This document shows positions 1-11,737 of a stretch of DNA of 11,737 nucleotides, piece after piece. The position numbers and the translations under genes are program-made. The DNA is from an uncultured Erysipelotrichaceae bacterium (GTDB taxonomy: Bacteria; Bacillota_I; Bacilli_A; RF39; UBA660), in the NCBI GenBank assembly GCA_902783345.1, contig CACZQI010000080.1, forward strand, positions 1 through 11,737. The letters are read 5' to 3'. The notes under the pieces are model-generated. The model was given only the letters and a program-made list of their open reading frames with translations. It was not told the DNA's origin and searched no databases. How positions within the stretch are numbered: the stretch's first letter is position 1; each line of letters opens with the position of its first letter.

Positions 1-1115
1 GAAGGTGGTTCATGAATAGCAACTGCTTCACGAATAACATCATTTAAAGCACTTGTTTTAACTTCTTTATTAGCATTTTCATAAGCCTTAATAATTTCTG
101 GCATTAATGTGTGAATACGACTTTTAGTTTTTGATGATAAAAAGACGATACTAGCATATGGCATAAACTGAAAGTTATTTCGTACGCTTTTTATCCATTT
201 TTTCATCTCTTCATCTTTATTTTCAATTAAATCCCATTTATTAATAACAATTACAACTGCTTTTCCAGCATTTATTGCATAACTAGCAATATGCTTATCA
301 TGTTCGATAATACCTTCTTCAGCATTAATAACTAAAACACAAACATCAGATCTTTCAATTGCTTTTAGTGAACGGATAAGACTATATTTTTCAATTTGCT
401 CATAAATTTTACCTTTTTTACGCATTCCAGCTGTATCAATAGCAATAAAATCTTGTTTTAAATAAGTAAATCTAGTATCAATAGCATCTCTAGTAGTTCC
501 GGCTTCATTGGAAACAATTACCCTATCTTCATTAAGTAAAGCATTAATAAGTGAGCTTTTACCCACATTAGGTCTTCCAATGATAGAAAACTTTAAGATT
601 GGCTCACTTTCTTCAGTCGTATATGGGTTAAAACCATCCGTAATTTCATTAAGTAATTCGTTAATTCCTCTTTTATGTTCAGCGCTTATTCCAATATATT
701 TATCAAATCCTAGTTCATAATAATTATAAATACTATCATTATGTTTATCATCATCTATTTTATTTACTGCTACAATAACCTTTTTATCAGTTTTTTTAAG
801 CATTTTAGCTATTAATAAATCATTACTGGTAAGGTCAGTTTTTCCATCAATTACAAAAACAATGACATCTGATTCATCCATCGCAAGTTCGGCTTGCATT
901 TTAATACTTTCATTAAAAGTTTCTTTGGCTAAATCAATCCCACCAGTATCAATTAAATTAAATGATTTATCTTGGTAATTAACTATTCCATATATTCTAT
1001 CTCTTGTAACTCCTGGCATATCATCGATTATTGCTTTTTTCTCATTTACTAAACGATTAAACAAAGTTGATTTGCCAGTATTTGGTCTACCAATTAAACA
1101 AACGGTTTTTCTCAT
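1..1115 (-). CDS. der: Ribosome-assembly GTPase Der (EngA), C-terminus cut by window edge
   Basis: Der is a double-GTPase needed for 50S subunit maturation. The frame stays open from an ATG at 1115 to position 1, giving 371 complete codons of about 435-440 usual for the family. GTPase domain 1 shows G1 GRPNTGKST at residues 9-17 (Thr where most homologues have Val), G3 DTGG at 56-59 and G4 NKID at 118-121. Domain 2 shows GRPNVGKSS at 180-188, DTAGMRKKGK at 227-236 and NKWD at 292-295. The start of the KH-like C-terminal domain is visible (LNDVIREAV near 357-365); roughly the last 65 residues lie outside the window. The start is supported by AAGGGGTGAG a few bases upstream. It follows the pilin gene on the same strand but is separated from it by a terminator and has its own promoter. 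Confidence 0.96.
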   Translation of the reverse strand, partial: MRKTVCLIGRPNTGKSTLFNRLVNEKKAIIDDMPGVTRDRIYGIVNYQDKSFNLIDTGGIDLAKETFNESIKMQAELAMDESDVIVFVIDGKTDLTSNDLLIAKMLKKTDKKVIVAVNKIDDDKHNDSIYNYYELGFDKYIGISAEHKRGINELLNEITDGFNPYTTEESEPILKFSIIGRPNVGKSSLINALLNEDRVIVSNEAGTTRDAIDTRFTYLKQDFIAIDTAGMRKKGKIYEQIEKYSLIRSLKAIERSDVCVLVINAEEGIIEHDKHIASYAINAGKAVVIVINKWDLIENKDEEMKKWIKSVRNNFQFMPYASIVFLSSKTKSRIHTLMPEIIKAYENANKEVKTSALNDVIREAVAIHEPP

Positions 1116-1139
1116 CGGACTCACCCCTTAAACAATGTA

Positions 1140-1168
1140 ATTTTAGCATAATTTCAGGGAAAATTCAA
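1140..1168 (-). promoter_or_regulatory. Sigma-A-type promoter of der
   Basis: On the minus strand TTGAAT (1163-1168) and TAAAAT (1140-1145) are 17 bp apart, and TG precedes the -10 by one base (extended -10). The predicted start lies about 18 bases before the der ATG. It sits directly after the terminator of the upstream pilin gene, so der is probably transcribed independently. Confidence 0.7.
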
Positions 1169-1171
1169 TTT

Positions 1172-1194
1172 AAAAACTCACTACTTTAGTGAGT
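1172..1194 (-). terminator. Rho-independent terminator after the pilin-like gene
   Basis: ACTCACTA (1176-1183) and TAGTGAGT (1187-1194) form a perfect 8-bp stem with a 3-base loop. Read on the minus strand it is followed by a run of T. It lies just after the pilin-like stop codon at 1204 and before the der promoter. Confidence 0.8.
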
Positions 1195-1203
1195 ATCGTT
1201 ATC

Positions 1204-1632
1204 TTATTTAAATGAGAATGTTCTTTTAGTTTTATTATATTTAAATGATATCTTGACATTATTCATTGAAGTGTTATCTTTAGGATTAATTACTTGTTTA
1301 ACTCCATCCACTTCTTTGTCATATCCAATCAAATCATTTGAAGCAAGCGTTCCCATTGTAACAGTGCAACTTACAATATTTCCATTTTCAGTGCAACCAC
1401 TACTTAAACCTACTACACATCTAATTGCATTAGTACTTACAAAGCATTTTTCATTTTCTTGGGCCCACGCTAAAATTGCCTGCTCTGCTGTTGTTATTTT
1501 AGTATTGTAAAGTCTTTCTTTAGTTTTAGCATTAGCATTATTAATAGCCGGTACTGCTAAAACTGTAATAAGTCCTAGTAAAACTATGACAGCTAAAAGT
1601 TCTACTAAAGTAAATCCTTTTTTATTCTTCAT
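1204..1632 (-). CDS. Type IV pilin-like / pseudopilin protein
   Basis: The 142-residue product has a classic prepilin N-terminus: a basic leader MKNKKG, a predicted prepilin-peptidase cut between Gly6 and Phe7, Glu at mature position 5 (Glu11), and a hydrophobic helix at about 8-29. The mature part has four cysteines (63, 72, 80, 89) that could form two disulfides outside the membrane. Such proteins build type IV pili, secretion pseudopili or DNA-uptake pili; which one cannot be told here, since no prepilin peptidase, ATPase or platform protein gene is in the window. It starts 10 bases after the engB stop, with GGTGA before the ATG, so it is probably transcribed with engB. A terminator follows. 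The globular part was not recognised. Confidence 0.85.
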   Translation of the reverse strand: MKNKKGFTLVELLAVIVLLGLITVLAVPAINNANAKTKERLYNTKITTAEQAILAWAQENEKCFVSTNAIRCVVGLSSGCTENGNIVSCTVTMGTLASNDLIGYDKEVDGVKQVINPKDNTSMNNVKISFKYNKTKRTFSFK

Positions 1633-1642
1633 AAATTCACCA

Positions 1643-2230
1643 CTAAACCTTTAAATTTTCTTCAATTAAAGATAATATTTCATCTTTACCTTTTTTCGTA
1701 ACACTTGAAAAATAGATAATTTTATCATTGGAATCTAATTTTAAAGTAGTTTCCATTAATTTTAAATTTTTCTCACGATCTTTAGCTTTTATTTTGTCAT
1801 ATTTAGTAGCAATAATTACCACTGGAATATTATAATATTTTAAATAATCATACATTAATAAATCATTTTCAGTAGGTCTAATTCGACCATCTATTAGCAT
1901 AAAAACCAGTTTTAAATTATCTCTAGATGTTAAATATTCTTCAATCATTAGACCAAATTTTTTTTGAACTGCTTTAGAAGTACTTGCATAACCATATCCA
2001 GGAACATCTACTAAATAAAAATCATCATTACATAAATAAAAATTTAATGTCTGAGTTTTTCCAGGAGTACTAGAAGTTTTAGCATAGTTTTTACGTCCAA
2101 TTAAGGTATTAATAAAACTACTTTTACCAACATTACTACGGCCTACTAAAAGGAATTCTAATTTTTTATCTGTAGGATACTGACTAGTTCTTACAGCTAT
2201 TACATTTAAATTTGAACTTTCAATTTTCAT
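1643..2230 (-). CDS. engB: Ribosome-biogenesis GTPase EngB (YsxC/YihA)
   Basis: EngB is a small GTPase acting in late 50S ribosomal subunit assembly. Numbering from the ATG at 2230, the product has 195 residues, normal for the family. G1 is GRSNVGKSS (30-38), followed by STPGKTQ (54-60), G3 DVPG (75-78), G4 TKYD (142-145) and a G5-like FSSVTKKG near 174-181. An ATG 12 bases further upstream (2242) is in frame, but the 2230 start is preferred: GAGTGAT sits at ribosome-binding distance before it, and the resulting MKIESSN N-terminus matches the MKV-type start of Bacillus YsxC as I recall it. It is the first gene of a unit with the pilin-like gene and is divergent from recU. Confidence 0.95.
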   Translation of the reverse strand: MKIESSNLNVIAVRTSQYPTDKKLEFLLVGRSNVGKSSFINTLIGRKNYAKTSSTPGKTQTLNFYLCNDDFYLVDVPGYGYASTSKAVQKKFGLMIEEYLTSRDNLKLVFMLIDGRIRPTENDLLMYDYLKYYNIPVVIIATKYDKIKAKDREKNLKLMETTLKLDSNDKIIYFSSVTKKGKDEILSLIEENLKV

Positions 2231-2247
2231 AATATCACTCATAAAGT

Positions 2248-2276
2248 ATTATAAATGATATGTTAACGAAATGCAA
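2248..2276 (-). promoter_or_regulatory. Promoter of engB
   Basis: On the minus strand a perfect TATAAT (2248-2253) lies 17 bp from TTGCAT (2271-2276), a weak -35. Predicted transcription would start near 2241, at or inside the upstream in-frame ATG, which supports the downstream start at 2230 and a leader of only about 11 bases. Confidence 0.65.
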
Positions 2277-2293
2277 ATTATTATCGAAATATA

Positions 2294-2322
2294 TGGAAAA
2301 ATTTCCCAATTTAAAGTATAAT
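2294..2322 (+). promoter_or_regulatory. Promoter of recU-PBP1A
   Basis: TATAAT (2317-2322) is preceded at 17 bp by TGGAAA (2294-2299), a 4/6 match to TTGACA. The predicted start is near 2329, followed at once by the ribosome-binding site GGTGAAG (2330-2336) and the TTG start at 2341. It is divergent from the engB promoter, with 17 bp between the two -35 elements. Confidence 0.65.
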
Positions 2323-2340
2323 TTATATTGGTGAAGTAAT

Positions 2341-2907
2341 TTGTTATATCCAAATAAAATTAAGAAAGAAAATCTAAACAAAATTTCATATGCTAACCGT
2401 GGTATGGATTTAGAATATTTGGTTAATGAAGCTAATAATTATTATTTGATTAATGATATAGCGGTTGTTTATAAAAAACCAACACCAATTCAAATTAATA
2501 AAGTTAGTTATGCTCATGGAACACCTGAAGTTGTTAAAGGAAAATTTAATCAAAAATCAACTTTAGATTATGTTGGATTATATAAGGGAAAATACATTGA
2601 TTTTGATGCTAAGAAAACTTTAAATAAAAAGTTTTTACCTTTAGAAAATATTCATCATCATCAACTTGAACATATTAAAAGAGTTATAAAACATGATGGT
2701 TTAGCATTTCTTATTATTGAAATATGTAATAAAATTTACTTATTACCAGGAGAAAAAATAATTGATTTCACCATAAACAATGAAAGAAAAAGTATACCTT
2801 TATCTTATATTGAAGAAAATGGCTATTTAATTAATTACGGATATAATCCAGTATTAGATTATTTAAAAATAATTGATGAATTTTATTTAAAGAAAGAAAG
2901 GGATTAA
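2341..2907 (+). CDS. recU: Holliday junction resolvase RecU (TTG start)
   Basis: RecU is the Firmicutes resolvase that cuts four-way DNA junctions during recombination and chromosome segregation. The 188-residue product keeps the family blocks: ANRGMDLE (18-25), KPTPIQ (46-51), STLDYVG (73-79), YIDFDAKKT (85-93) and HHHQL (105-109). Asp76 and the D-x-K core (Asp89, Lys91) match the PD-(D/E)xK nuclease fold. Asp89 stands where Bacillus homologues have Glu (FEAK), a conservative change. The TTG start is accepted because GGTGAAG precedes it and the next Met (22) falls inside the conserved ANRGM motif. One base separates its stop from the PBP start, the conserved recU-ponA pairing of Firmicutes. 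Confidence 0.95.
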   Translation: MLYPNKIKKENLNKISYANRGMDLEYLVNEANNYYLINDIAVVYKKPTPIQINKVSYAHGTPEVVKGKFNQKSTLDYVGLYKGKYIDFDAKKTLNKKFLPLENIHHHQLEHIKRVIKHDGLAFLIIEICNKIYLLPGEKIIDFTINNERKSIPLSYIEENGYLINYGYNPVLDYLKIIDEFYLKKERD

Positions 2908-2908
2908 T

Positions 2909-5692
2909 ATGAAAAAGCAAAAATTAAAATTTAAACCAAAAGAATTAATAAACGCTGATAAAGCTAATGAATTTAAAAAGTTTAAAGCTCGCTTTAAAAA
3001 AGGAAGATTAGGAGAAAAGATTTTAACTTTATTTATGCTTTTTATAGTCTTAGTTTTTCTTGCGGTATTAGCATTTTTAATCTATATAATAATTTCATCA
3101 CCTGAATTTGATGCAGAAAAATTATATACCAAAGAAGCATCTATAATTTATGATGCTAAAGGTAATGAAATTGCGCGTCTTGGTACGGAAAATCGTGAAA
3201 GAGTTACTTATGATGATTTACCAGAAGTATTTATTGATGCTTTAGTAGCAACAGAAGACTCAAGATTTTTCCAACACTCTGGAGTAGACATGGCAAGATT
3301 TTTAAAAGCCACTTTAGGCCAACTTGCTGGTTCTTCTGGGGCTGGTGGTGCTTCTACATTAACAATGCAAATTGCTAAACAAAGAATTAATGGTAATGAG
3401 GCAACTGGAATTAAAGGTATTATTCGTAAGTTTTCAGATATTTACGTTGCCGTATTTAAATTAGAAAAGAATTACACTAAAGAACAAATCATTGAACTAT
3501 ATGTAAATATTCCACAGCTTGGTAGTGTTTATGGAATTGAACAAGCAAGTCAAAAATATTTTGGCAAATCAATTAGTGAGGTTTCTTTATCCGAAGCTGC
3601 CCTACTTGCTGGATTATTCCAAGCGCCATCGGCATATAACCCTTATAATTCACCCGAAAAAGCAGAAAGTCGTCGTAACCAAGTACTAAATCTAATGCAA
3701 AGACATGGTTATATTACTGAAGAAGAATGTGAACTTGCTAAATCTATAAAAGTTGCTGATTTAATTGTTAAAAATGGTACTGCAACTAATAAATATCAAG
3801 GATTTATTAATACTGTTATTGAAGAAGTAAAGAAAAGAACTGGTAAAGATCCATATACAGTTCCAATGAAAATTGAATCAACTATGATTCCTGAAAAACA
3901 AGATGTAATTAATGATATATATAATGGTAAAACTTCATTTAAATGGGCTGATGATGCAATACAAGCAGGTATAGCGGTTACTGATGTTAAAACTGGCGCT
4001 TTAATTGCAGTTGGAGCATCTCGTAAACAAGGCGAACTTGTATATAACTACGCAACAATGATTAATAGACACCCAGGTTCATCTGCAAAACCAATCTTTG
4101 ATTATGGCCCTGCAATTGAATATTTAAACTGGTCAACTGGTACGACAATAGTCGATGATGCTTATACTTATAGTAATGGTGCTTATATTAAAAACTGGGA
4201 TAATAGTTATAAAGGTATTATGACAGTTAAAACTGCACTTGCTTCATCAAGAAACATACCGGCTCTTCAAGCTTTCCAAGCTGTAAATCAAGCCGATATT
4301 AATAAATTTGTTACTGGTTTAGGCATTACTCCAGAATATGAAAAAGGTTCAACATTTATTAATGAATCACATAGTATTGGTGGATTTAATGGCGTTAACC
4401 CTCTTCAAATGTCAGCAGCCTATGGAGCCTTTGCTAGAGGTGGCGTTTACATTGAACCATATTCATTTACTAAAGTAGAATTTTTAGATACTGGCGAAAT
4501 TTATACTGTTACTCCAGAAAAACGTACAGTTATGAGTGAAGCAACAGCTTATATGATAAATATGATTTTAAAATATGCGGTTACATCTGGTAATGTTACG
4601 GCTGGTTCTAAATCTGGTACTGATATTGCAAGTAAAACTGGTACATCTACTGTATCAGCAGCCGCTAAAAAAGCAGCTGGTATTACAGGTAGTATCATTG
4701 GTAACTCATGGCAACTTTCTTATTCACCACAATATGTTTGTGCTGTATGGGTTGGATACGATAATGAAGTTACTAAAGAACATTATTTAACATCATCTAA
4801 AGGTAGTTATGCTCGTAAAACTTTATCTAAAGAACTTACTAAAGGAATTCAAGAATCAGGACATACTTGGACTAAACCATCATCAGTTGTATCTGCAACT
4901 ATTGAACTTGAAACAATTCCTCTAGCACTTGCTAGTGATTATACTCCTTCTAAATTAAAGAGTACTGAATACTTTAAAGCTGGTACAGTTCCTGATGAAG
5001 TTTCAACTAGATTTAGCAAATTAGAAAATCCTACTGGACTTAAAGCAACTTATAATATTGGTTCAGTTAGTCTTACATGGAACGCAATTAAAACACCTGA
5101 TGCTATAGATAATGATTATTTAACTAATTATTTTAAAGAAGGATATAAAACATTTGCTGATAAATATTTGAAAAAACGCTTAGAATATAATGAAAATAAT
5201 ATTGGTAATATTGGTTATGAAGTTTACGTAAGTAATTCTTCTGGTGGTTATACTAATTTAGGATTTACAACTAATACATCATTTACTTATAATGCTACTC
5301 TTTCTGAAAGTAAAACTTTCATGGTTAAATCAAGTTATTCTAAATTTAAAGATAATATGAGCTCTGGTATTACAGTATCAGTTACTCCTACTGGAGAAAT
5401 AACACCTAGTGCAACAGCCAATTGGAAGGTTGAATTAAATGGTGCCGGCAGCATGACTGTTCAAGAATATTATGATTTTATAAATGAAGGCAATAGTCCT
5501 GTTAAAGTAATGGATTCTGGTTATGATGTTACTAAACAAGCTAAAATATCTAATCCTACTTGCTGGGATTCAACGAATAATGAAGTATCATGTTTAACTT
5601 TAGATTGTAATGAAAATTATTATATTCAATATACTATTACATATAATAATAAATCTAAAAGCTTATCTAGAACTTTAACAAGCGGATGCTAA
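2909..5692 (+). CDS. Class A penicillin-binding protein (PBP1A-like) with FN3 and Cys-containing tail
   Basis: A bifunctional peptidoglycan synthase that polymerises glycan strands and cross-links stem peptides. The 927-residue product has a basic cytoplasmic N-terminus, one membrane segment at about 38-62, then a GT51 glycosyltransferase: EDSRFFQHSGVD (116-127, catalytic Glu116), GGASTLTMQ (146-154), RKFSD (173-177, usually RKxxE) and a KYFGK block near 216-220. The transpeptidase has SxxK (Ser391, Lys394), SRN (447-449) and KTGT (576-579). Residues about 706-827 look like a fibronectin type III domain. The last 90 residues are unfamiliar, with four Cys (885, 895, 900, 927), the final one being the last residue. 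AAAGGGAT inside recU serves as ribosome-binding site. It ends at the stem of a bidirectional terminator. It corresponds in position to Bacillus ponA. Confidence 0.95.
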   Translation: MKKQKLKFKPKELINADKANEFKKFKARFKKGRLGEKILTLFMLFIVLVFLAVLAFLIYIIISSPEFDAEKLYTKEASIIYDAKGNEIARLGTENRERVTYDDLPEVFIDALVATEDSRFFQHSGVDMARFLKATLGQLAGSSGAGGASTLTMQIAKQRINGNEATGIKGIIRKFSDIYVAVFKLEKNYTKEQIIELYVNIPQLGSVYGIEQASQKYFGKSISEVSLSEAALLAGLFQAPSAYNPYNSPEKAESRRNQVLNLMQRHGYITEEECELAKSIKVADLIVKNGTATNKYQGFINTVIEEVKKRTGKDPYTVPMKIESTMIPEKQDVINDIYNGKTSFKWADDAIQAGIAVTDVKTGALIAVGASRKQGELVYNYATMINRHPGSSAKPIFDYGPAIEYLNWSTGTTIVDDAYTYSNGAYIKNWDNSYKGIMTVKTALASSRNIPALQAFQAVNQADINKFVTGLGITPEYEKGSTFINESHSIGGFNGVNPLQMSAAYGAFARGGVYIEPYSFTKVEFLDTGEIYTVTPEKRTVMSEATAYMINMILKYAVTSGNVTAGSKSGTDIASKTGTSTVSAAAKKAAGITGSIIGNSWQLSYSPQYVCAVWVGYDNEVTKEHYLTSSKGSYARKTLSKELTKGIQESGHTWTKPSSVVSATIELETIPLALASDYTPSKLKSTEYFKAGTVPDEVSTRFSKLENPTGLKATYNIGSVSLTWNAIKTPDAIDNDYLTNYFKEGYKTFADKYLKKRLEYNENNIGNIGYEVYVSNSSGGYTNLGFTTNTSFTYNATLSESKTFMVKSSYSKFKDNMSSGITVSVTPTGEITPSATANWKVELNGAGSMTVQEYYDFINEGNSPVKVMDSGYDVTKQAKISNPTCWDSTNNEVSCLTLDCNENYYIQYTITYNNKSKSLSRTLTSGC

Positions 5693-5724
5693 AAAGAAGT
5701 GAATTTAAAATTTCACTTCTTTTT
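5691..5724. terminator. Bidirectional terminator between PBP1A and nth
   Basis: A perfect 13-bp stem (5691-5703 with 5712-5724) has an 8-base loop, with A-runs and T-runs on its two sides so it can work on both strands. It includes the last bases of the PBP stop codon and the end of nth, separating two convergent transcription units. Confidence 0.88.
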
Positions 5725-6336
5725 CATTTTAAAGTATTTACAATCTTTTTTAAATAAGCATTCTTCACATTCTGGATTTAAACTCTTACAATGGTATCTA
5801 CCAAATAATAAAATTTGCTCTGATACTTTATTCCATTTATCTTTAGGTATCTTTTTCATTAAAACCTTTTCAATTTTATCAGGATTAGTTTCATCTTTAA
5901 CAATACCTAAACGATTTGATACTCTAATAACATGGGTATCTACTGGTATACATGGCTCATTATATAAATTTTTTAAAACTACATTAGCCGTTTTACGCCC
6001 TACTCCAGGAAGTGTTTCTAAAAACAATCTATCATTAGGCACATGCCCATCATATCTATTAACTATAATCTTAGCAATTTTAAGTATATAATCAGCCTTT
6101 TTTGTATAAGACCCACATGGTTTAATAATATTTTTTATATCTTCTATACTAGCATTAGCCAGAGAAAAAATATCATATTTACTAAATAAATCTTTTGTAA
6201 CAATATTAACTCTTTTATCTGTACACTGAGCACTTAAAACCGTCGCAATTAATAATTCGTAATCTTTATTATATTCAAGTTCACATTTGGGTGATGGAAT
6301 ATAATAATCTAATATTTCATAAAAACTACTCTTCAT
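5713..6336 (-). CDS. nth: Endonuclease III (DNA glycosylase/AP lyase)
   Basis: A base-excision repair enzyme that removes oxidised pyrimidines and nicks the abasic site. The 207-residue product, normal length, has the helix-hairpin-helix LPGVGRKTANVVL (109-121) with catalytic Lys115, catalytic Asp133 in VDTHVIRVSNRLG, and the iron-sulfur ligands Cys183, 190, 193 and 199 in the expected C-x6-C-x2-C-x5-C spacing. Its ATG overlaps the end of dnaD by 11 bases, indicating translational coupling; dnaD-nth is a known Bacillus gene pair. The stop is TGA, which supports the standard genetic code. Confidence 0.97.
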   Translation of the reverse strand: MKSSFYEILDYYIPSPKCELEYNKDYELLIATVLSAQCTDKRVNIVTKDLFSKYDIFSLANASIEDIKNIIKPCGSYTKKADYILKIAKIIVNRYDGHVPNDRLFLETLPGVGRKTANVVLKNLYNEPCIPVDTHVIRVSNRLGIVKDETNPDKIEKVLMKKIPKDKWNKVSEQILLFGRYHCKSLNPECEECLFKKDCKYFKMKKK

Positions 6337-6979
6337 CTTCTAACCAATTATAATCAAATAAAACTTTATTTTCTTCTTTTAATTCATTATTTCTTTTGCG
6401 TTTTAAGTTGTTTTCTACATCAGCTTTAGTTTTAAAGCCTTTTTTACCCCATTCATAAAGAATTTTATCAATATATCTTAAGTTATTTACACCATTAAAT
6501 ACGGCTTCTTTTAAGGCTTCAATAATAAGTTCTTCGCTCATCCCGCTTTTGACCCATTCATTAATAACTTCATATTCCATCGCACTAAGGCCACGTCCAA
6601 ATTCTTTTTCAAAAATAGTAAAAATATTATCTTTAGATTTTGATTTAATATCTAAATTAATATTACTAACAATTGCTTTATATAAATTAGATAAATCAAT
6701 TGTTTCATTAACTTTACCATCAGTAGATTTGCTCATTTTAACGGCAATTAAGCCTTTAGAAGTTAAACTAGTAAAACTTTCTAATATTTCTTTATCTTCT
6801 AATAATATTACATTTTTAATTTCATTTATGTCTAAAACTGGAACATCTTGATTAGAAAAATAGATAATTAATAATAATTCATTTAAAGAAAGGTTATAGT
6901 CTTTAACAATTTGAAATAATTGTTTTTTAAAATAATAATCTTTATCTTTAATTAAACCTTCTAAAACATTATTGCTCAT
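6326..6979 (-). CDS. dnaD: DnaD-family primosome protein
   Basis: DnaD acts with DnaB and DnaI in Firmicutes to load the replicative helicase at oriC and at stalled forks. Counted from the ATG at 6979 the product has 217 residues. About 10-110 is a likely winged-helix N-terminal domain; 119-190 is the DnaD C-terminal domain, starting IFTIFEKEFGRGLSAMEYEVI (split by eye at 119-139) and containing the hallmark RYIDKILYEW (168-177). The tail is acidic and basic mixed, as usual. A GTG three codons upstream is in frame, but GGAGTGAT sits just before the 6979 ATG, so that start is chosen. It overlaps the cca end and the nth start by 11 bases each. Confidence 0.92.
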   Translation of the reverse strand: MSNNVLEGLIKDKDYYFKKQLFQIVKDYNLSLNELLLIIYFSNQDVPVLDINEIKNVILLEDKEILESFTSLTSKGLIAVKMSKSTDGKVNETIDLSNLYKAIVSNINLDIKSKSKDNIFTIFEKEFGRGLSAMEYEVINEWVKSGMSEELIIEALKEAVFNGVNNLRYIDKILYEWGKKGFKTKADVENNLKRKRNNELKEENKVLFDYNWLEDEE

Positions 6980-8066
6980 TAATATCACTCCAATTAGTTA
7001 AAATATAATTTTTAAGATCATTATAATTATTCTTAATTTTTTTATCTAATACTTTATTTATTAAATCATCATGAATTATTTTTAATTTAAAGGTTGGTTT
7101 AAGATTTAAAATGGTCATAATATCATTATTATTAATTTTTAACTCATGATTATTTTTAATAACTAAATTTTGATACTTTTTATTAAGAACTGTTTTATCA
7201 TAACCTAATATTTCTCCAGCAACTAATGAAATATACAAACCTTCTTTAAATAAAGTATAATTAGTAATTTCATTACTGTTTAATATTCCCCTAATTCTTT
7301 TAATAATATTTAAATTATTTTTCGTAAAAGGATAATTAGGTGAAAAAGATAGTTGCGCCCATATACCTAAAAGGTCAGGCACTTCTACTATTTTATCATA
7401 ATCTATCTCTAGTGCCCATAATAAATCCATCTTTTTTAAGACTTCTAATCCACTTAAAATATTTTTGGAAGATAATATCTTATCTAATTCTTCCTTTTTT
7501 CTTGTATAACTTAAATTCTTAATTAAATCCTTATTATTTGAAATAAAGTCAGTTATCTCTTCATCCAATTTAAAATCTAAAGTTATGGCCATTCTAATAG
7601 CCCTTAGCATTCTAAGCGGATCTTCTTTAAGTCTTTCTTTAGCACTACCAATGGTTCTAATAATGTGATTGTTTAAATCTTCTTTGCCATTTAAGTAATC
7701 AAATATATAACCAGCACTGTTCATACATAACGCATTAATTGTAAAATCTCTTCTTTGAATATCAGTAATTAAATTATTAATATATTCAACCTTGTTTGGT
7801 TTATGGTTCTCATAACCACTTTCTTTTCGATATGTTGTAATATCAAAATTATATTCACCATAAGTAAAATTTATTGAACCATACTCTGTAGTTTCCTTTT
7901 TAATATTAAAAATATTAATTATATCTTTAGGAAGAGCATTAGTGCATATATCAACGTCAACTGAATGAATGCCTAGTAGAAAGTCTCTTACATAACCACC
8001 TACCACATAAGCTTCAAATCCATTTTCCTCAATTTTTTCTAAAATACTTTTTATTTCTAAGTTCAT
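6969..8066 (-). CDS. cca: CCA tRNA nucleotidyltransferase (class II)
   Basis: Adds or repairs the 3'-CCA of tRNAs without a template. The 365-residue product, slightly short for the family, has GGYVRD (23-28), the metal-binding DVD (Asp37, Asp39), the RRDFTINAL motif (105-113) and the EDPLRMLRAIR motif (148-158) that helps choose the incoming nucleotide, followed by the helical tRNA-binding region. Full CCA addition is the likely activity, but separate CC- and A-adding enzymes share these motifs. It has its own promoter; GTGGTG precedes the ATG. It leads the cca-dnaD-nth run. The last third is Lys/Asn-rich and weakly recognisable, which fits the base composition. Confidence 0.94.
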   Translation of the reverse strand: MNLEIKSILEKIEENGFEAYVVGGYVRDFLLGIHSVDVDICTNALPKDIINIFNIKKETTEYGSINFTYGEYNFDITTYRKESGYENHKPNKVEYINNLITDIQRRDFTINALCMNSAGYIFDYLNGKEDLNNHIIRTIGSAKERLKEDPLRMLRAIRMAITLDFKLDEEITDFISNNKDLIKNLSYTRKKEELDKILSSKNILSGLEVLKKMDLLWALEIDYDKIVEVPDLLGIWAQLSFSPNYPFTKNNLNIIKRIRGILNSNEITNYTLFKEGLYISLVAGEILGYDKTVLNKKYQNLVIKNNHELKINNNDIMTILNLKPTFKLKIIHDDLINKVLDKKIKNNYNDLKNYILTNWSDINEQ

Positions 8067-8081
8067 TTTTACACCACTTAA

Positions 8082-8110
8082 AGTATATCAAATATTTTAG
8101 ACTTTGTGAA
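8082..8110 (-). promoter_or_regulatory. Promoter of cca-dnaD-nth
   Basis: On the minus strand TTCACA (8105-8110) and TATACT (8082-8087) are 17 bp apart. The predicted start is only about 9-10 bases before the cca ATG. It lies just after the last bacteriocin-peptide gene, so the housekeeping run need not depend on the upstream operon. No clear terminator was seen between the two. Confidence 0.72.
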
Positions 8111-8115
8111 CTAAA

Positions 8116-8274
8116 CTAATAACACTTTTTACCAGATTTATATCTACTTATTGAACTACCAATAGCGCGTCCAATTTCTAAAAAGATTGTAAGCACTCTA
8201 GATACAGCACTAAGTAAATTGCCATTTAAACTACTAGAGCCACCTTTTATTTCTAACATTCTATTATTATCCAT
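8116..8274 (-). CDS. Double-glycine-leader peptide B (putative second bacteriocin peptide)
   Basis: A 52-residue product, not recognised by name. The leader MDNNRMLEIKGG has Gly-Gly at -2/-1 with hydrophobic residues at -7 (Met6) and -4 (Ile9), as C39 peptidases require, although it is a weaker match than that of peptide A. The predicted mature part is 40 residues: a Ser/Asn-rich start, an amphipathic helix, a GxxxG motif (Gly35-Gly39), then a basic tail SGKKCY with one Cys (51) next to the end. Net charge of the mature part is about +5. Its ATG shares a base with the stop of peptide A (TAATG) and has no clear ribosome-binding site, so translation is probably coupled, favouring matched amounts of the two peptides. 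An inner Met6 start would leave too short a leader. Confidence 0.82.
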   Translation of the reverse strand: MDNNRMLEIKGGSSSLNGNLLSAVSRVLTIFLEIGRAIGSSISRYKSGKKCY

Positions 8275-8408
8275 TAGTTACATTTTAAAGGACGAAAATA
8301 TCCATCTAAAATACCGGCAATAAAACTTACAGCAGCCCCAATTATAGCATAAATGCCCCATCTTACAGCACCGCCACTAATATTCTTTAATTCATTATCG
8401 CTAAGCAT
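8274..8408 (-). CDS. Double-glycine-leader peptide A (putative first bacteriocin peptide)
   Basis: A 44-residue product whose 13-residue leader MLSDNELKNISGG fits the double-glycine consensus closely: Leu -12, Ser -11, Glu -8, Leu -7, Ile -4, Gly -2 and Gly -1. The predicted mature peptide has 31 residues: AVRWG, a hydrophobic helix with a GxxxG motif (Gly32-Gly36) and small-xxx-small contacts, then the tail YFRPLKCN with one Cys (43) next to the end. Net charge of the mature part is about +2. The ribosome-binding site GAAAGGAAAGG lies inside the end of the exporter gene, and the ATG overlaps that gene by 8 bases. With peptide B it resembles a class IIb two-peptide bacteriocin; a signalling pair is the alternative. 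Confidence 0.86.
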   Translation of the reverse strand: MLSDNELKNISGGAVRWGIYAIIGAAVSFIAGILDGYFRPLKCN

Positions 8409-10398
8409 TTTTCCTTTCCTTTCTAGCAGTTAAATTAATGATTTTGTCAAAATAATTCCCTTCTAAATTATGACTTACATAAATTATTGTTTTATCTTGA
8501 TAATAATTATTAATATTTTTAATTATTTTATTTCTTAAATGATAACCAATTTCTGATAATGCTTCATCAAATAATAATATTTTAGCATCTTGGTATAATG
8601 CTCTTGCTAAAATTATCCTTTGCCTTTCTCCCCTACTTACATTATTTTTAACAATTGTATTATAACCATTTTCCTTTTTATTAATTATTTCTTTTAAATC
8701 TAAAATAGATTCTATTTTTTTAAATTTCTTTTCATCATATTTTTGATTTAAAAGAATATTTTGATAAATTGTATCAGTAAATAAATTATCAGCATCAGTA
8801 CAATATAAAACATTTTCTTTTAAAGATTTTTTACTTATTTTTTTAATATTTTCTTTTCCTATTTTAATATCTCCAGTATAATCAGTAATATTACCATTTA
8901 AAATATTTAATAATGTTGATTTACCTACCCCATTAATTCCTTTAATTAATACTTTATCATTAGCATTTATTTTTAAATTATATTTATCAAATATTTTATT
9001 TAAATTAATATCATAACTTAAATTAGTTATTTCAATATCATTATTAGGCACTTTTAAGCCAATATTAACCTTTTCTTTATCTAAATAGTAAATTCCATTT
9101 AATCTTGATAAAACACTCTTAAAATAGCTTATATTAGGAATAATATTATTATAGTAATTTATATTATCAATAAAATAGTTATAATATAAGATATATATTA
9201 AAATATCTAAAGCATTGTTATTAAAACTAAATAGAATTATTATTACTAAGCAAAAATCATTAAATAAATTAGATAAAATATTTAATTTATTTAAAAACTG
9301 TTCTAACTTTAAACTATCATCTGAGTTTTTCACTACTAAAGTATTTAGTTTACTTAAGAAAAAGTTTTCTTTACCTAAATTTTTAATTGATGTTAAATTA
9401 TTAATACTTTCAATAATGTTATCCATTAAGAATGATGAACTATCTAAATATTTTAGATAATAATTAAAACATTTTTTATTTAGTAAATAATTAATAAATA
9501 AGAATATTAAACTACTAATAAAGATAATTAAAGTTAAAATAAAACTTAAATTAAACATAATTATTAAACTAGCAACTAATATTATAAAGGTTAAAAAGAT
9601 ATTAATTATTTCTTTGGTAAAAAAATCTTTAATATTATTTAAGTCGCTAATCCGAGATATTATTTCGCCACTTGATTTTAACTGCAAATATTTAAAGGGT
9701 AAATAAAAGAAATGATTAAGATAGTCTTTTATTAAAATAATATTATTATTTCTATTTAAATGCGCGATAATATTATTTTTAAGATAATTTAAGGCGTTTT
9801 TAACAACTAAAAGTATTATAAATAAGATAATTAATCGATAATTATTATTTAAGATTAATTTGATACTATAAGTTGTAAATAAAGATATGCCAATAATAAT
9901 AAAACTAAATAATATTAATATAGATAGTTTAAAAAGATTATCTTTAACTGTTCTAAATAATAAATTCTTAAAATAATTATTCTTATGATATTTAACTATC
10001 TTATTTAAAGGATTTAATTTTAAAATATTGCCAGTAAATAAAGATTTAAATTCTTCTTTAGAGTATTTTTTCATACCTACTGCAGGATCCATGCAAAGTA
10101 GGTATTTATCAAATACCTTATAAACTACTACAAAATGATACATATTATTAATATTTAACTGCGCAATATAAGGAGTATTTACTACTCTTATATTTTTACT
10201 ATTATAACCATTAACTTCAAAACCATATTTGATAGCCGCTTCTTTTAAATTATAAAAGTTAGTTCCTTCGCTATTAGTTAAAGTATCTACTTTAATAATT
10301 TCTAAAGGTACATAGCCATTATAGTATTTAATTAATGATGATAATGCGCACGCTCCACAATCAGCAATATCATTTTGCCTTTCTACAAAATCTTTCAC
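8401..10398 (-). CDS. Peptidase-containing ABC exporter (C39) for double-glycine peptides
   Basis: A bacteriocin-type exporter that cuts leaders after Gly-Gly and pumps the peptides out. Counted from GTG 10398 (665 residues), the C39 domain (about 1-135) has Gln8, Cys14 in DCGAC, His88 and Asp104 as likely catalytic set. About six membrane helices follow (150-420), then the ATPase (455-655): Walker A GINGVGKST (487-495), Walker B LLFDE (608-612) and His643. The signature is VSRGE (587-591) instead of LSGGQ, and the D-loop after Walker B is atypical. An in-frame GTG at 10407 lies within the ribosome-binding site AGGGTGAG, so 10398 is preferred. The two peptide genes overlapping its 3' end are its likely cargo. 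The product is very rich in Asn, Ile and Lys. No HlyD-type accessory gene is visible. Confidence 0.93.
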   Translation of the reverse strand: MKDFVERQNDIADCGACALSSLIKYYNGYVPLEIIKVDTLTNSEGTNFYNLKEAAIKYGFEVNGYNSKNIRVVNTPYIAQLNINNMYHFVVVYKVFDKYLLCMDPAVGMKKYSKEEFKSLFTGNILKLNPLNKIVKYHKNNYFKNLLFRTVKDNLFKLSILILFSFIIIGISLFTTYSIKLILNNNYRLIILFIILLVVKNALNYLKNNIIAHLNRNNNIILIKDYLNHFFYLPFKYLQLKSSGEIISRISDLNNIKDFFTKEIINIFLTFIILVASLIIMFNLSFILTLIIFISSLIFLFINYLLNKKCFNYYLKYLDSSSFLMDNIIESINNLTSIKNLGKENFFLSKLNTLVVKNSDDSLKLEQFLNKLNILSNLFNDFCLVIIILFSFNNNALDILIYILYYNYFIDNINYYNNIIPNISYFKSVLSRLNGIYYLDKEKVNIGLKVPNNDIEITNLSYDINLNKIFDKYNLKINANDKVLIKGINGVGKSTLLNILNGNITDYTGDIKIGKENIKKISKKSLKENVLYCTDADNLFTDTIYQNILLNQKYDEKKFKKIESILDLKEIINKKENGYNTIVKNNVSRGERQRIILARALYQDAKILLFDEALSEIGYHLRNKIIKNINNYYQDKTIIYVSHNLEGNYFDKIINLTARKERKNA

Positions 10399-10412
10399 TT
10401 TTCTCACCCTCT

Positions 10413-10440
10413 ACTATATATATTACCGGTAAAAGGCTAA
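10413..10440 (-). promoter_or_regulatory. Promoter of the exporter/bacteriocin operon, with palindromic spacer
   Basis: On the minus strand TTAGCC (10435-10440) and TATAGT (10413-10418) are 16 bp apart; overlapping TATATA is an alternative -10. The spacer contains the perfect palindrome TTACCGGTAA, a possible operator. The weak -35 suggests dependence on an activator binding the tandem repeats just upstream. The 28 bases from the spacer through the -10 to AGAGGG are identical in the inverted copy. Confidence 0.6.
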
Positions 10441-10458
10441 TTTCCTTTTTTATTTTTT

Positions 10459-10495
10459 CATTTTGTGGAAAACTTTTGCATTTTGTGGAAAACTT
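10459..10495 (-). promoter_or_regulatory. Tandem 17-bp operator-like repeats upstream of the exporter promoter
   Basis: AAGTTTTCCACAAAATG occurs twice, identically, at 10479-10495 and 10459-10475 (minus strand), with a 20-bp period, about two helical turns. Each contains TTTTCCACA, one mismatch from the DnaA box TTATCCACA. The nearer repeat ends 18 bp before the -35, a typical activator position. Either DnaA or an unknown regulator (for example a LytTR-type response regulator, which uses paired direct repeats at about 21-bp period) could bind. Confidence 0.65.
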
Positions 10496-10496
10496 A

Positions 10497-10530
10497 AAAA
10501 AATTTGCAATTTTTTTAATGCAAATTTTTT
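10497..10530 (-). terminator. Terminator of the PF06541-type gene
   Basis: A 12-bp stem (10497-10508 with 10519-10530) with a 10-base loop is followed on the minus strand by a run of T. It overlaps the stop codon of the gene at 10515 and ends where the operator repeats begin. The stem is AT-rich, with only two G-C pairs, so its efficiency is uncertain. Confidence 0.6.
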
Positions 10531-11204
10531 CGCTTTGAGAAATCTTTTTTTAGTGATTTTAATCTTTTAACCAATCGCTCACTTTTAGCGATATAGGGAA
10601 AAGCATCAAATAATCTGGTCTTAATTTTATTTAATTTGATATTTTTATTTTTAGTATATTCATTTAAAATCTTTTCTAAATTATTAGCAATATTACTAAC
10701 TCTATAAGCATCTATATTACTAATTATAATATCTAAAGAAAGAACTATGGCTAAAATAATTGAAGCAATACATTTTTTATTTTCTGGTATACTATCTAAA
10801 AAACTATAAATTAGAGGATTTAAAAGATAAATAATAACTAGCCCACCAATAGCAAAGAAAATACCATTAAATAAACATACACGCCCATTAATATTATATT
10901 TACGCCATGAATAATCCCACCATCTTCGTTTAAATATTTTCTCTAAAATAACGCTAGTTAAATACTCAATTATTGAGCAAATAATAAAACTAAATATAAA
11001 TACTACGAATGGGTCATTATAATAACCCGTTAACAAAAATGTAATAAAAAGTGCACCAAAGCCATATATCGGCAAATAAGGCCCAATTAAAAAGCCACGA
11101 TTAACCCATTTTTTCTCGCCAATATAAACAAAAATTACTTCCGCAATATATCCAATTACACAGTATGCAAAAAAGAACAAAAAATAAAAATATATACTTT
11201 TCAT
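10515..11204 (-). CDS. Multi-pass membrane protein, putative ABC-transporter type IV family (PF06541/COG4905-like)
   Basis: A 229-residue membrane protein of unknown biochemical function. It matches the family known as putative ABC-transporter type IV (CmpB-like): an N-terminal helix (5-28), the conserved NRGFLIGPYLPIYGFGAL block (35-52), a further helix near 65-90, WWDYSW (95-100), NINGRVCL (104-111), and two more helices (112-130, 145-163). The C-terminal 60 residues are basic and probably cytoplasmic. AGGAGT precedes the ATG. It lies alone between the two inverted promoter blocks, with its own promoter and terminator. An immunity role for the neighbouring bacteriocin is possible from position but is inference; the family is widespread outside such loci. 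Confidence 0.85.
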   Translation of the reverse strand: MKSIYFYFLFFFAYCVIGYIAEVIFVYIGEKKWVNRGFLIGPYLPIYGFGALFITFLLTGYYNDPFVVFIFSFIICSIIEYLTSVILEKIFKRRWWDYSWRKYNINGRVCLFNGIFFAIGGLVIIYLLNPLIYSFLDSIPENKKCIASIILAIVLSLDIIISNIDAYRVSNIANNLEKILNEYTKNKNIKLNKIKTRLFDAFPYIAKSERLVKRLKSLKKDFSKRKNLH

Positions 11205-11223
11205 AAATTATACTCCTATTAAA

Positions 11224-11252
11224 ATCTTACTATTAATAAGCAAAATTATCAA
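11224..11252 (-). promoter_or_regulatory. Promoter of the PF06541-type gene
   Basis: On the minus strand TTGATA (11247-11252) and TAAGAT (11224-11229) are 17 bp apart, with the predicted start just before AGGAGT. Its -35 lies about 11 bp from the right-hand operator repeats, so a protein bound there could affect both directions. Confidence 0.65.
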
Positions 11253-11263
11253 TGAAATTTGAC

Positions 11264-11300
11264 AAGTTTTCCACAAAATGCAAAAGTTATTCACAAAATG
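11264..11300 (+). promoter_or_regulatory. Tandem operator-like repeats with DnaA-box matches, right copy
   Basis: The first unit is identical to the left-copy units (TTTTCCACA at 11267-11275). The second differs at two bases and contains TTATTCACA (11287-11295), a full match to the DnaA-box consensus TTATNCACA. Both have the same direction and a 20-bp period. The pair lies upstream of the plus-strand -35 and close to the divergent PF06541-type gene promoter. Confidence 0.62.
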
Positions 11301-11318
11301 CATTTTAAAAAAAGGAAA

Positions 11319-11346
11319 TTGGCATTTTACCGGTAATATATATAGT
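11319..11346 (+). promoter_or_regulatory. Promoter of the small-peptide/spoIIIAH-like unit
   Basis: TTGGCA (11319-11324) and TATAGT (11341-11346) are 16 bp apart with the palindrome TTACCGGTAA in the spacer. The -35 is closer to consensus than in the exporter copy, predicting higher basal activity. Transcription would start near 11353, about 46 bases before the 19-codon gene. It resembles a vegetative promoter; I see no clear sporulation-sigma-factor elements. Confidence 0.6.
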
Positions 11347-11398
11347 AGAGGGAGAAAATTAACCCTTTAATGCGCGAAGAAAAATGAAAGGAGGATTT

Positions 11399-11458
11399 AT
11401 GCTTTATATAAGAATAATTATAAGAATAGCGCTAAAAGCACTACGTTATTTTATTTAG
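11399..11458 (+). CDS. Putative 19-residue cationic amphipathic peptide
   Basis: MLYIRIIIRIALKALRYFI is preceded by AAAGGAGG (11387-11394) at ideal spacing, among the strongest ribosome-binding sites in the window, which argues that the frame is translated. Arg5, Arg9, Lys13 and Arg16 fall on one face of a helix and Ile/Leu/Phe on the rest, with no acidic residue: a membrane-active or membrane-anchored helix. There is no double-glycine leader. It could be a leaderless antimicrobial or toxin-like peptide, a signal, or a leader peptide controlling the spoIIIAH-like gene 45 bases downstream. I do not recognise it, and at 19 codons it may not be a real gene. Confidence 0.5.
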   Translation: MLYIRIIIRIALKALRYFI

Positions 11459-11503
11459 TAATAAAAATTATATAACCTAATATAATTTATTAATGGAGGA
11501 ATT

Positions 11504-11737
11504 ATGATTAATAAACAGAAATTGTGGTTTTTAACATTATTTAGTCTTATTTTAGTATTAGCAGTCTATTATATTGCCTTACCTGATGCAAGTCTATCTA
11601 ATTTAATTGCTAGTGAAAACTCTAAAAGCAATGAGTTAAATGTAACAACTAATAGTGATGATGCCCTAGCAACTCTTAGAATCGAAGATGATGAAAAGGT
11701 TCTTGCTCAAATGGCAGAATTACAAGAAACATTATTA
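11504..11737 (+). CDS. spoIIIAH: SpoIIIAH-like sporulation channel protein, N-terminal part
   Basis: SpoIIIAH is made in the mother cell and joins SpoIIQ across the intermembrane space to form the channel that feeds the forespore. The visible 78 codons start MINKQKLWFLTLFSLILVL and continue to a single membrane helix ending near residue 27 (VYYIALPD), closely resembling the KKQTVWLLTMLSL-type N-terminus of Bacillus SpoIIIAH. A Ser/Asn-rich linker and an acidic start of the next domain (DDEKVLAQMAELQET) follow. GGAGGA precedes the ATG. The C-terminal ring-forming domain is beyond the window. No spoIIIAG lies upstream, unlike the standard spoIIIA operon, although other operon genes could lie downstream. 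Start and family are supported; the function is by homology only. Confidence 0.8.
   Translation, partial: MINKQKLWFLTLFSLILVLAVYYIALPDASLSNLIASENSKSNELNVTTNSDDALATLRIEDDEKVLAQMAELQETLL

Follow-up and report, generated by a model that had tools for sequence, protein, structure and literature searches.

A Double-Glycine Peptide Pair with Paired Cysteines and a Competence-Type Promoter: A Candidate Two-Peptide Bacteriocin behind a C39 Exporter

The window analyzed here is a stretch of 11,737 nucleotides from an uncultured Erysipelotrichaceae bacterium (GenBank assembly GCA_902783345.1, contig CACZQI010000080.1, positions 1 to 11,737 of the forward strand). On its minus strand, directly downstream of a gene for a C39 peptidase-ABC exporter, two short open reading frames (ORFs) encode the precursors of peptides A and B. 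The two peptides are almost certainly a secreted pair and, by analogy with the class IIb peptides, probably a membrane-active bacteriocin. The best explanation of the whole, to which we give about as much weight as to everything else together, is a class IIb-type, covalently tethered two-peptide bacteriocin made during competence.

According to this explanation, the exporter would cut both precursors after Gly-Gly and secrete two cationic, helical peptides, whose helices would pair through conserved GxxxG motifs. The C-terminal cysteines, judging from their conservation and co-loss, would be joined by a disulfide that locks the two peptides into a one-to-one heterodimer, and the pair, as expected from class IIb bacteriocins, may permeabilize the membranes of competing or kin cells. 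The operon has a promoter common to comEA-comEC and Rpn-type nucleases, and the toxin would be produced once the cell is prepared for DNA uptake and recombination. A sequence-only reading of the window had proposed a two-peptide bacteriocin here; the pairing of the cysteines, the conservation across an order and the competence-type promoter go beyond it.

Results

Two Double-Glycine Peptides

The genes of the operon and the conserved elements of the two peptides are as follows:

8401..10407, minus strand: C39 peptidase-ABC exporter, with Peptidase_C39, ABC_membrane and ABC_tran above the Pfam cut-offs
8274..8408, minus strand: precursor of peptide A, 44 amino acids, with a 13-residue double-glycine leader and the mature part AVRWGIYAIIGAAVSFIAGILDGYFRPLKCN
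8116..8274, minus strand: precursor of peptide B, 52 amino acids, with a 12-residue double-glycine leader and the mature part SSSLNGNLLSAVSRVLTIFLEIGRAIGSSISRYKSGKKCY
8301..8315, minus strand: GxxxG of peptide A (GILDG, residues 32-36)
8158..8172, minus strand: GxxxG of peptide B (GRAIG, residues 35-39)
8280..8282, minus strand: single cysteine of mature A (Cys43)
8122..8124, minus strand: single cysteine of mature B (Cys51)

The two short genes of 44 and 52 codons that the sequence-only reading had described were recovered on the minus strand, which that reading had not named. The 8-base overlap lies between the exporter ORF and A (8401-8408), and at the TAATG junction A and B overlap by one base (8274). 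Gly-Gly closes the leader at residues 12-13 of A and 11-12 of B and is invariant in 36 relatives of A and in 36 relatives of B. Besides Gly-Gly, the invariant or nearly invariant positions in these relatives are G32, G36, P40 and C43 of peptide A (G36 and C43 invariant, G32 nearly so) and G35, G39 and C51 of peptide B (G39 invariant, G35 and C51 nearly so). The conservation of G32/G36 and of G35/G39 means that one GxxxG is kept per peptide; in the 119 pairs described below, 115 mature A and 116 mature B sequences contain the motif. The mature parts in these pairs are cationic, with a mean charge of +1.5 for A and +3.6 for B, so that the Gly-Gly leaders, the small cationic mature parts and the GxxxG motifs seen earlier in the window are confirmed. 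AlphaFold2 models, which are monomers of modest confidence and were used for helix assignment alone, showed a single helix in peptide B (residues 14-47; 35 sequences, mean predicted local distance difference test [pLDDT] score 74.8) and another in peptide A (residues 4-42), the latter modeled from only 3 sequences (mean pLDDT 77.5).

The suspicion that the pair might be a new family holds for B and fails for A. Peptide A scores above the cut-off of TIGR03949, the NCBIfam model of the class IIb lactobin A/cerein 7B bacteriocins (30.7 versus 21.5 bits), which is also matched by 21 of the 36 A relatives. It stays below the cut-offs of NF038034 (lactococcin G-beta/enterocin 1071B; 28.8 versus 37 bits) and PF11632 (18.4 versus 29.4 bits). 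Peptide B gave no meaningful match to any Pfam or NCBIfam model and none to TIGR03949 up to E 1; three of the 36 B relatives match TIGR03949 weakly (E up to 0.001). Sequence searches of the PDB with profiles of A and B returned nothing significant, the best match being the CtA peptide chain against the B leader (E 0.11). The two-peptide, double-glycine, C39-exported class IIb system of the sequence-only reading is supported, its killing activity being a prediction.

Conservation and Selection

The same block, with A and B intact and with order and neighbors unchanged, occurs on a contig of a rumen metagenome-assembled genome (uncultured Erysipelotrichaceae, RUG12877; locus L001), whose exporter is 68% identical to that of the window. 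The family of this genome (G001), comprising 291 genomes, was searched for relatives. The exporter was matched at E ≤ 1e-60 in at least 215 of the 291, a lower bound with four candidates scored per genome. Eighty loci taken from those 215 genomes, among the best exporter matches, together with the window and L001 make 82 exporter-chosen loci, and A followed by B stands behind the exporter in 80 of them. The exceptions are L082 and L119, the latter showing A and then the end of the contig. A further 40 loci were chosen, 35 by matches to B and five (L153-L157) because the match to the C-terminal part of B was missing; in total, 119 A-B pairs are present in 117 of 122 loci and are missing from L082, L119, L144, L146 and L167.

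A profile built from 36 B sequences matched 268 of the 291 family genomes, ten of them two or three times, and 183 of 193 genomes of the order. In a class-wide draw it matched 31 of 247 genomes, and 29 of the 31 were already known members of the family or order. The other two matches (G354 and G511) cover positions 2-29 only, inside frames of 139 amino acids, and look like leader resemblance. As far as the class-wide draw shows, B does not extend beyond one order, in which it is a near-core gene. Sizes among the genomes searched range over 0.4-1.9 Mb, and some of the assemblies are incomplete, which may make artefacts of some of the absences of B. The order is probably RF39 of GTDB. One report places RF39 in the class Bacilli and describes reduced genomes (PMC6784871), and another predicts spore formation with an atypical set of genes (PMC10868615).

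Both frames are under purifying selection. By NG86, the nonsynonymous distance (dN) is lower than the synonymous distance (dS) for A and for B in all 22 closest pairs listed. Between the window and L001, dN and dS are 0.10 and 0.57 for A and 0.23 and 0.82 for B; between L062 and L063 they are 0.09 and 0.19 for A and 0.01 and 0.33 for B. The sequence-only reading had proposed to look for co-occurring homologues next to C39 exporters, and these were found in the 80 loci; it had also allowed for unconserved frames with a ratio near 1 and for an exporter tied to other substrates in relatives, and both doubts fell away, the first with dN below dS throughout the 22 pairs and the second with the linkage of the exporter to A-B. 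That A and B are chance open frames, to which their shortness and the lack of a curated family for B lend some color, can be dismissed for practical purposes because A followed by B is conserved in 80 of the 82 exporter-chosen loci, dN lies well below dS, and the Gly-Gly, glycine and cysteine columns are invariant.

Variants of the arrangement were also noted. Two A-B pairs stand at L047 and at L156, a third double-glycine peptide lies between A and B in L088 and L105, and a B-like ORF without a leader follows B in L053, L115 and L116. Genes this short are easily missed by annotation, as had been anticipated: among 120 B relatives listed, of 340, a bacteriocin-type name is borne only by P0116 ("bacteriocin") and P0102 ("bacteriocin-like protein").

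Paired Cysteines

A single cysteine is the rule: mature A has exactly one in 107 of the 119 pairs, and for mature B the count is likewise 107 of 119. The C-terminal cysteine was scored by a refined rule, in which a buried cysteine, seen as FCG[LF]F in one subgroup, was not taken as C-terminal and L088 and L105 were re-paired past their third peptide. It is found in both peptides of 111 pairs, in neither peptide of 7, in A only once (L153) and never in B only (Fisher p 1.4e-10). The rows are related, and the second pairs of L047 and L156 seem to form one group with L065 and L154; with this group, L093, L155 and L157, about four independent co-losses can be counted by eye. Within the 82 exporter-chosen loci, the three pairs without the cysteine (L047 second pair, L065 and L093) lack it in both peptides, and the five loci chosen for a lost B end have lost the A end as well in four cases.

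A cysteine that is the only one in its peptide has no intramolecular partner, and the co-loss points to a bond between A and B. The helices of class IIb bacteriocins pack in parallel through GxxxG; if A and B pack in this way, both cysteines would lie at the same end. From these patterns in the alignments, we are inclined to think that mature A and B are joined as a disulfide-linked heterodimer.

A Promoter Common to Competence and Nuclease Genes

The promoter of the operon, the repeats beside it and a second copy of the promoter lie at these positions:

10407..10450, minus strand: promoter block of the exporter-A-B operon, consisting of AAAAAGGAAAT, a spacer, CCGGTAATATATATA and GAGGG
10459..10493, minus strand: two direct repeats GTTTTCCACAAAATG, 20 bases apart, immediately upstream of the promoter block
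11307..11352, plus strand: second copy of the promoter block, preceding a 19-codon ORF and a spoIIIAH-like gene, with the same arrangement in L001

Upstream of the exporters, AAAAAGGAAAT is followed by a spacer, a TAATATATA-like stretch and then GAAGGGAG or GAGGG. A scripted rule for this motif picked out 53 of 79 exporter loci; among 521 regions upstream of other genes, it picked out 13. A longer pattern, with up to 3 mismatches allowed, gave 8 sites in G001 versus none in a reversed control. These sites precede the exporter, the short ORF with spoIIIAH, comEA-comEC, two PDDEXK_2 nucleases, a DUF1016 protein and two unknown genes; the comEA-comEC pair consists of an SLBB protein and a DUF4131 protein, with the ComEC domain at G001:C98:4517-5230. 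With a stricter pattern, all eight exporters of eight other genomes were recovered along with four further sites, which belong to DNA-damage-inducible protein D (G220, equivalog above its cut-off) and, by eye, to three PDDEXK-like genes (one in G120, two in G255).

In a draw of 184 genomes of the order, this stricter pattern, which misses many true sites, including all of those of G001, yielded 43 sites in 26 genomes and none in the reversed control. Exporters, recognized by their position or by a C39-like start, account for 23 of the sites, about half of them labeled by reading the start of the ORF by eye, and PDDEXK_2/Rpn-like genes for 7 (four checked). One site each precedes comEA (G304), a DUF1016 gene, a CCA-adding enzyme (by eye), the G220 gene for protein D (DinD) already named and a thioester/SpaA surface protein; the remainder are three unknown genes, four sites at contig ends or without a gene reading, and one inside another gene (G158). 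The ComEA of G304, with the motif upstream of its gene, scores 75.6 versus a cut-off of 53.1 bits in TIGR00426. A comEA ORF lies upstream of comEC in all 19 genomes examined; a script found the motif before comEA at 11 of these 19 loci, and three more recognized by eye bring the number to 14. The promoters of exporter and comEA in a single genome can be almost the same in their second half (G161, G292). A ComEC domain is present in 57 of 60 order genomes. It is well supported that exporter-A-B shares a regulon with comEA-comEC and Rpn-type nucleases, and the likeness of the promoters makes competence control of the operon likely.

A SigH-family sigma factor was matched in 56 of the 60 order genomes, and that the sigma factor of the shared regulon is SigH-like is our guess. 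A clean sigma-H promoter was considered and rejected: the -35-like half, AAAGGAAAT, fits the consensus, and the -10 half mostly does not. Matches to the GTTTTCCACAAAATG repeat number 5 in the window versus a mean of 1.63 in shuffled sequences, 2 of 200 shuffles reaching 5. Repeats like GTTATCCACA(AAATG) stand in pairs, spaced by about 20-21 bases, at 10459-10493 (minus) and 11266-11300 (plus) of the window, and similar pairs (L174-L180) occur just upstream of most promoter copies of G001, L176 excepted. A LytTR-type reading of these repeats seems doubtful, the spacing of about 20-21 bases being all that fits. The repeat letters TTATCCACA look like DnaA boxes, and such repeats could tie the regulon to replication state. 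In G089 (L208, L219-L224), 11 copies of the promoter pattern were seen; the gene that follows, in the cases in which it could be read, mostly encodes a PDDEXK_2/Rpn-type nuclease.

A plainer account is an ordinary class IIb bacteriocin, that is, a non-covalent pair whose cysteines are free, homodimeric or put to another use and whose promoter resembles those of the com genes without function. Class IIb pairs are not known to need an inter-peptide bond, A belongs to TIGR03949 and L153 has its cysteine in A only; however, the cysteines are lost together and stand singly in each peptide of most pairs, and the promoter motif is concentrated at exporters and recurs before comEA. We consider this account rather unlikely. 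The same leader and exporter type serves the ComC-type competence pheromones of streptococci, which, with the promoter common to com genes, would also suit a secreted pair of signals that induces competence or another programme rather than a toxin. Such pheromones appear improbable here: the two helical peptides, about 31 and 40 residues long, are conserved together and carry GxxxG and paired cysteines, no histidine kinase was noticed in the window, and the plan of the sequences is conserved across an order with no diversifying.

Exporter and Neighboring Genes

In NCBIfam, the exporter is best matched, along almost all of its length, by the Mbov_0121-family peptidase-domain ABC transporter (277 bits) and the TIGR01193 bacteriocin ABC transporter (244 bits). 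From the alignment with L001, the true start of the exporter is probably the GTG at 10398. The ABC signature is VSRGE in the window and LSGGE in L001, and the window's copy may be weakened, to judge from its signature. PADLOC matches of the exporter were discarded since they look like generic ATPase matches.

Downstream of A-B, the window encodes a CCA-adding-type polymerase and a DnaD-like protein (Pfam) and an endonuclease III-like protein (by eye). The divergent upstream gene is cut by the end of the window; its full-length counterpart in L001 is SpoIIIAH-like (PF12685, 35.4 bits versus a cut-off of 30.6). The flanks of the 82 exporter-chosen loci hold SpoIIIAH-like proteins in 37, GerM/Germane in 33, a GerE-like LuxR protein in 33, YqfC in 19 and YqfD in 18 and, by eye, proteins like ribosomal protein S21 in 36 and like YqeY in 26. 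In 44 of the 82 loci, a poorly conserved gene of about 141 amino acids fills a gap of roughly 400 bases between exporter and A; its L050 member, the one searched, has no Pfam or NCBIfam match. Exporter distances follow those of GerM (r 0.74, 31 loci) and SpoIIIAH (r 0.68, 35 loci) nearly as closely as GerM and SpoIIIAH follow each other (r 0.78, 31 loci), which indicates that the block descends mainly vertically. The A and B sequences are fast-evolving, and their joint distances correlate moderately with those of GerM (r 0.57, 30 loci).

The spore-gene neighbors raise the alternative that A and B are a developmental factor of an unusual sporulation programme, for example of sibling cannibalism or of the engulfment stage. 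In its favor, SpoIIIAH-, GerM- and GerE-like proteins and YqfD recur at the loci and the exporter tracks two of them, as given above; spoIIIAH lies behind a copy of the same promoter in the window's subclade; and Spo0A_C was found in 57 of 60 order genomes. On the other hand, SpoIIIAE was found in none of the 60, the promoter otherwise stands mostly before genes for DNA uptake and nucleases, and the close synteny may reflect old gene order alone. We regard a developmental role as quite improbable. A full classical endospore programme is ruled out by the absence of SpoIIIAE from the 60 genomes despite Spo0A_C; with SpoIIIAH-like, GerM, GerE-like, YqfC and YqfD proteins present, the sporulation set is an abridged or altered one.

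Three further genes of the window were noted. The gene immediately upstream of the exporter encodes a CmpB-like membrane protein (PF06541; 10515-11204, minus), which has relatives in 14 of the 82 loci and is a possible but unsupported candidate for immunity. Behind the second promoter copy and before spoIIIAH, the 19-codon ORF MLYIRIIIRIALKALRYFI (11399-11458, plus) has a strong ribosome site; by eye, counterparts of 17-19 codons stand behind the same promoter in L001 and L043-L046 and, without that promoter, in L094. Its product is possibly a leaderless peptide, a signal or a protective peptide. A pseudopilin-like protein (1204-1632, minus; PF07963 above cut-off) with an N-terminal methylation motif is, from its sequence, of a kind that could serve a DNA-uptake pilus.

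Discussion

Several results weigh against a tethered bacteriocin made during competence. The refined cysteine rule was set after the data had been seen, and a cruder rule (any cysteine in the last ten residues, no re-pairing) gives 109 pairs with both cysteines, 7 with A only, none with B only and 3 with neither (p 4e-4). The L153 pair keeps its cysteine in A only, and disulfides in the peptides of a gut anaerobe need an oxidant. The structures are of monomers, at mean pLDDT values of 75-78, with only 3 sequences behind the model of A. The strict promoter pattern was found in only 26 of 184 genomes; five of the 19 comEA loci lack the motif, and most of those 19 genomes were chosen because their exporter has it. 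In none of the 60 genomes does a SigH-family match pass the cut-off of the family, and the enrichment of the sigma-H consensus (up to 1 mismatch) is only moderate (15 of 81 exporters versus 11 of 529 controls). No immunity gene was recognized next to A and B in the window, and A and B distances follow those of the exporter only loosely (r 0.32, 75 loci).

Beyond the single locus, we tentatively suggest, at somewhat less than even confidence, that an uncultured order of gut Bacilli with reduced genomes, probably RF39, keeps a vertically inherited, near-core two-peptide toxin, tethered by a disulfide between dedicated C-terminal cysteines and fired by the promoter class of ComEA-ComEC and recombination-type nucleases, and with it a kill-and-take-up-DNA programme outside streptococci. 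If true, this would provide a peptide family and a mechanism for an abundant uncultured order of the animal gut and would predict naturally competent cells that kill neighbors for their DNA. The two-peptide bacteriocins would also gain a covalently tethered type, and an obligate 1:1 dimer would make the meeting of the peptides on the target directly testable. Synthesis and testing of the mature peptides, which have 31 and 40 residues in the window, would not require culture of the host. The short genes lack names even though selection has preserved them in over nine-tenths of the genomes of the order. In open-licence literature, preprints excluded and by title and the start of the abstract, no description was found of peptide B or the cysteine pair, nor of the conservation across the order or the promoter link.

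In streptococci, bacteriocins are reportedly co-regulated with competence by SigX/ComX (PMC4497675, PMC9765292). Toxin production tied to DNA uptake would be common to both cases, although here the tie is known from promoter sharing alone, and the bacteria, the peptides and the promoter are different, with no pheromone circuit identified in the present system. Compared with curated transporters, the window exporter falls below the cut-offs of both the Mbov_0121-family and TIGR01193 models (500 and 523.85 bits).

In lactococcin G and enterocin 1071 (NF038034, NF038035, PF11632), two helices pair through GxxxG. Peptide A nears the beta-peptide models of this group and stays below their cut-offs, and the lactococcin G and enterocin 1071 pairs are not known to have an inter-peptide bond. 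The closest likeness in curated terms is to lactobin A/cerein 7B (TIGR03949), whose model A passes and with which the system has in common the double-glycine leader, the C39 exporter and small, helical, cationic GxxxG peptides. Unlike lactobin A/cerein 7B, it has a B peptide outside TIGR03949, one C-terminal cysteine in each peptide, an order-wide near-core distribution, a competence-type promoter and no recognized immunity gene. From its sequence, the system would work like a class IIb bacteriocin, and it appears to belong to that class by virtue of peptide A.
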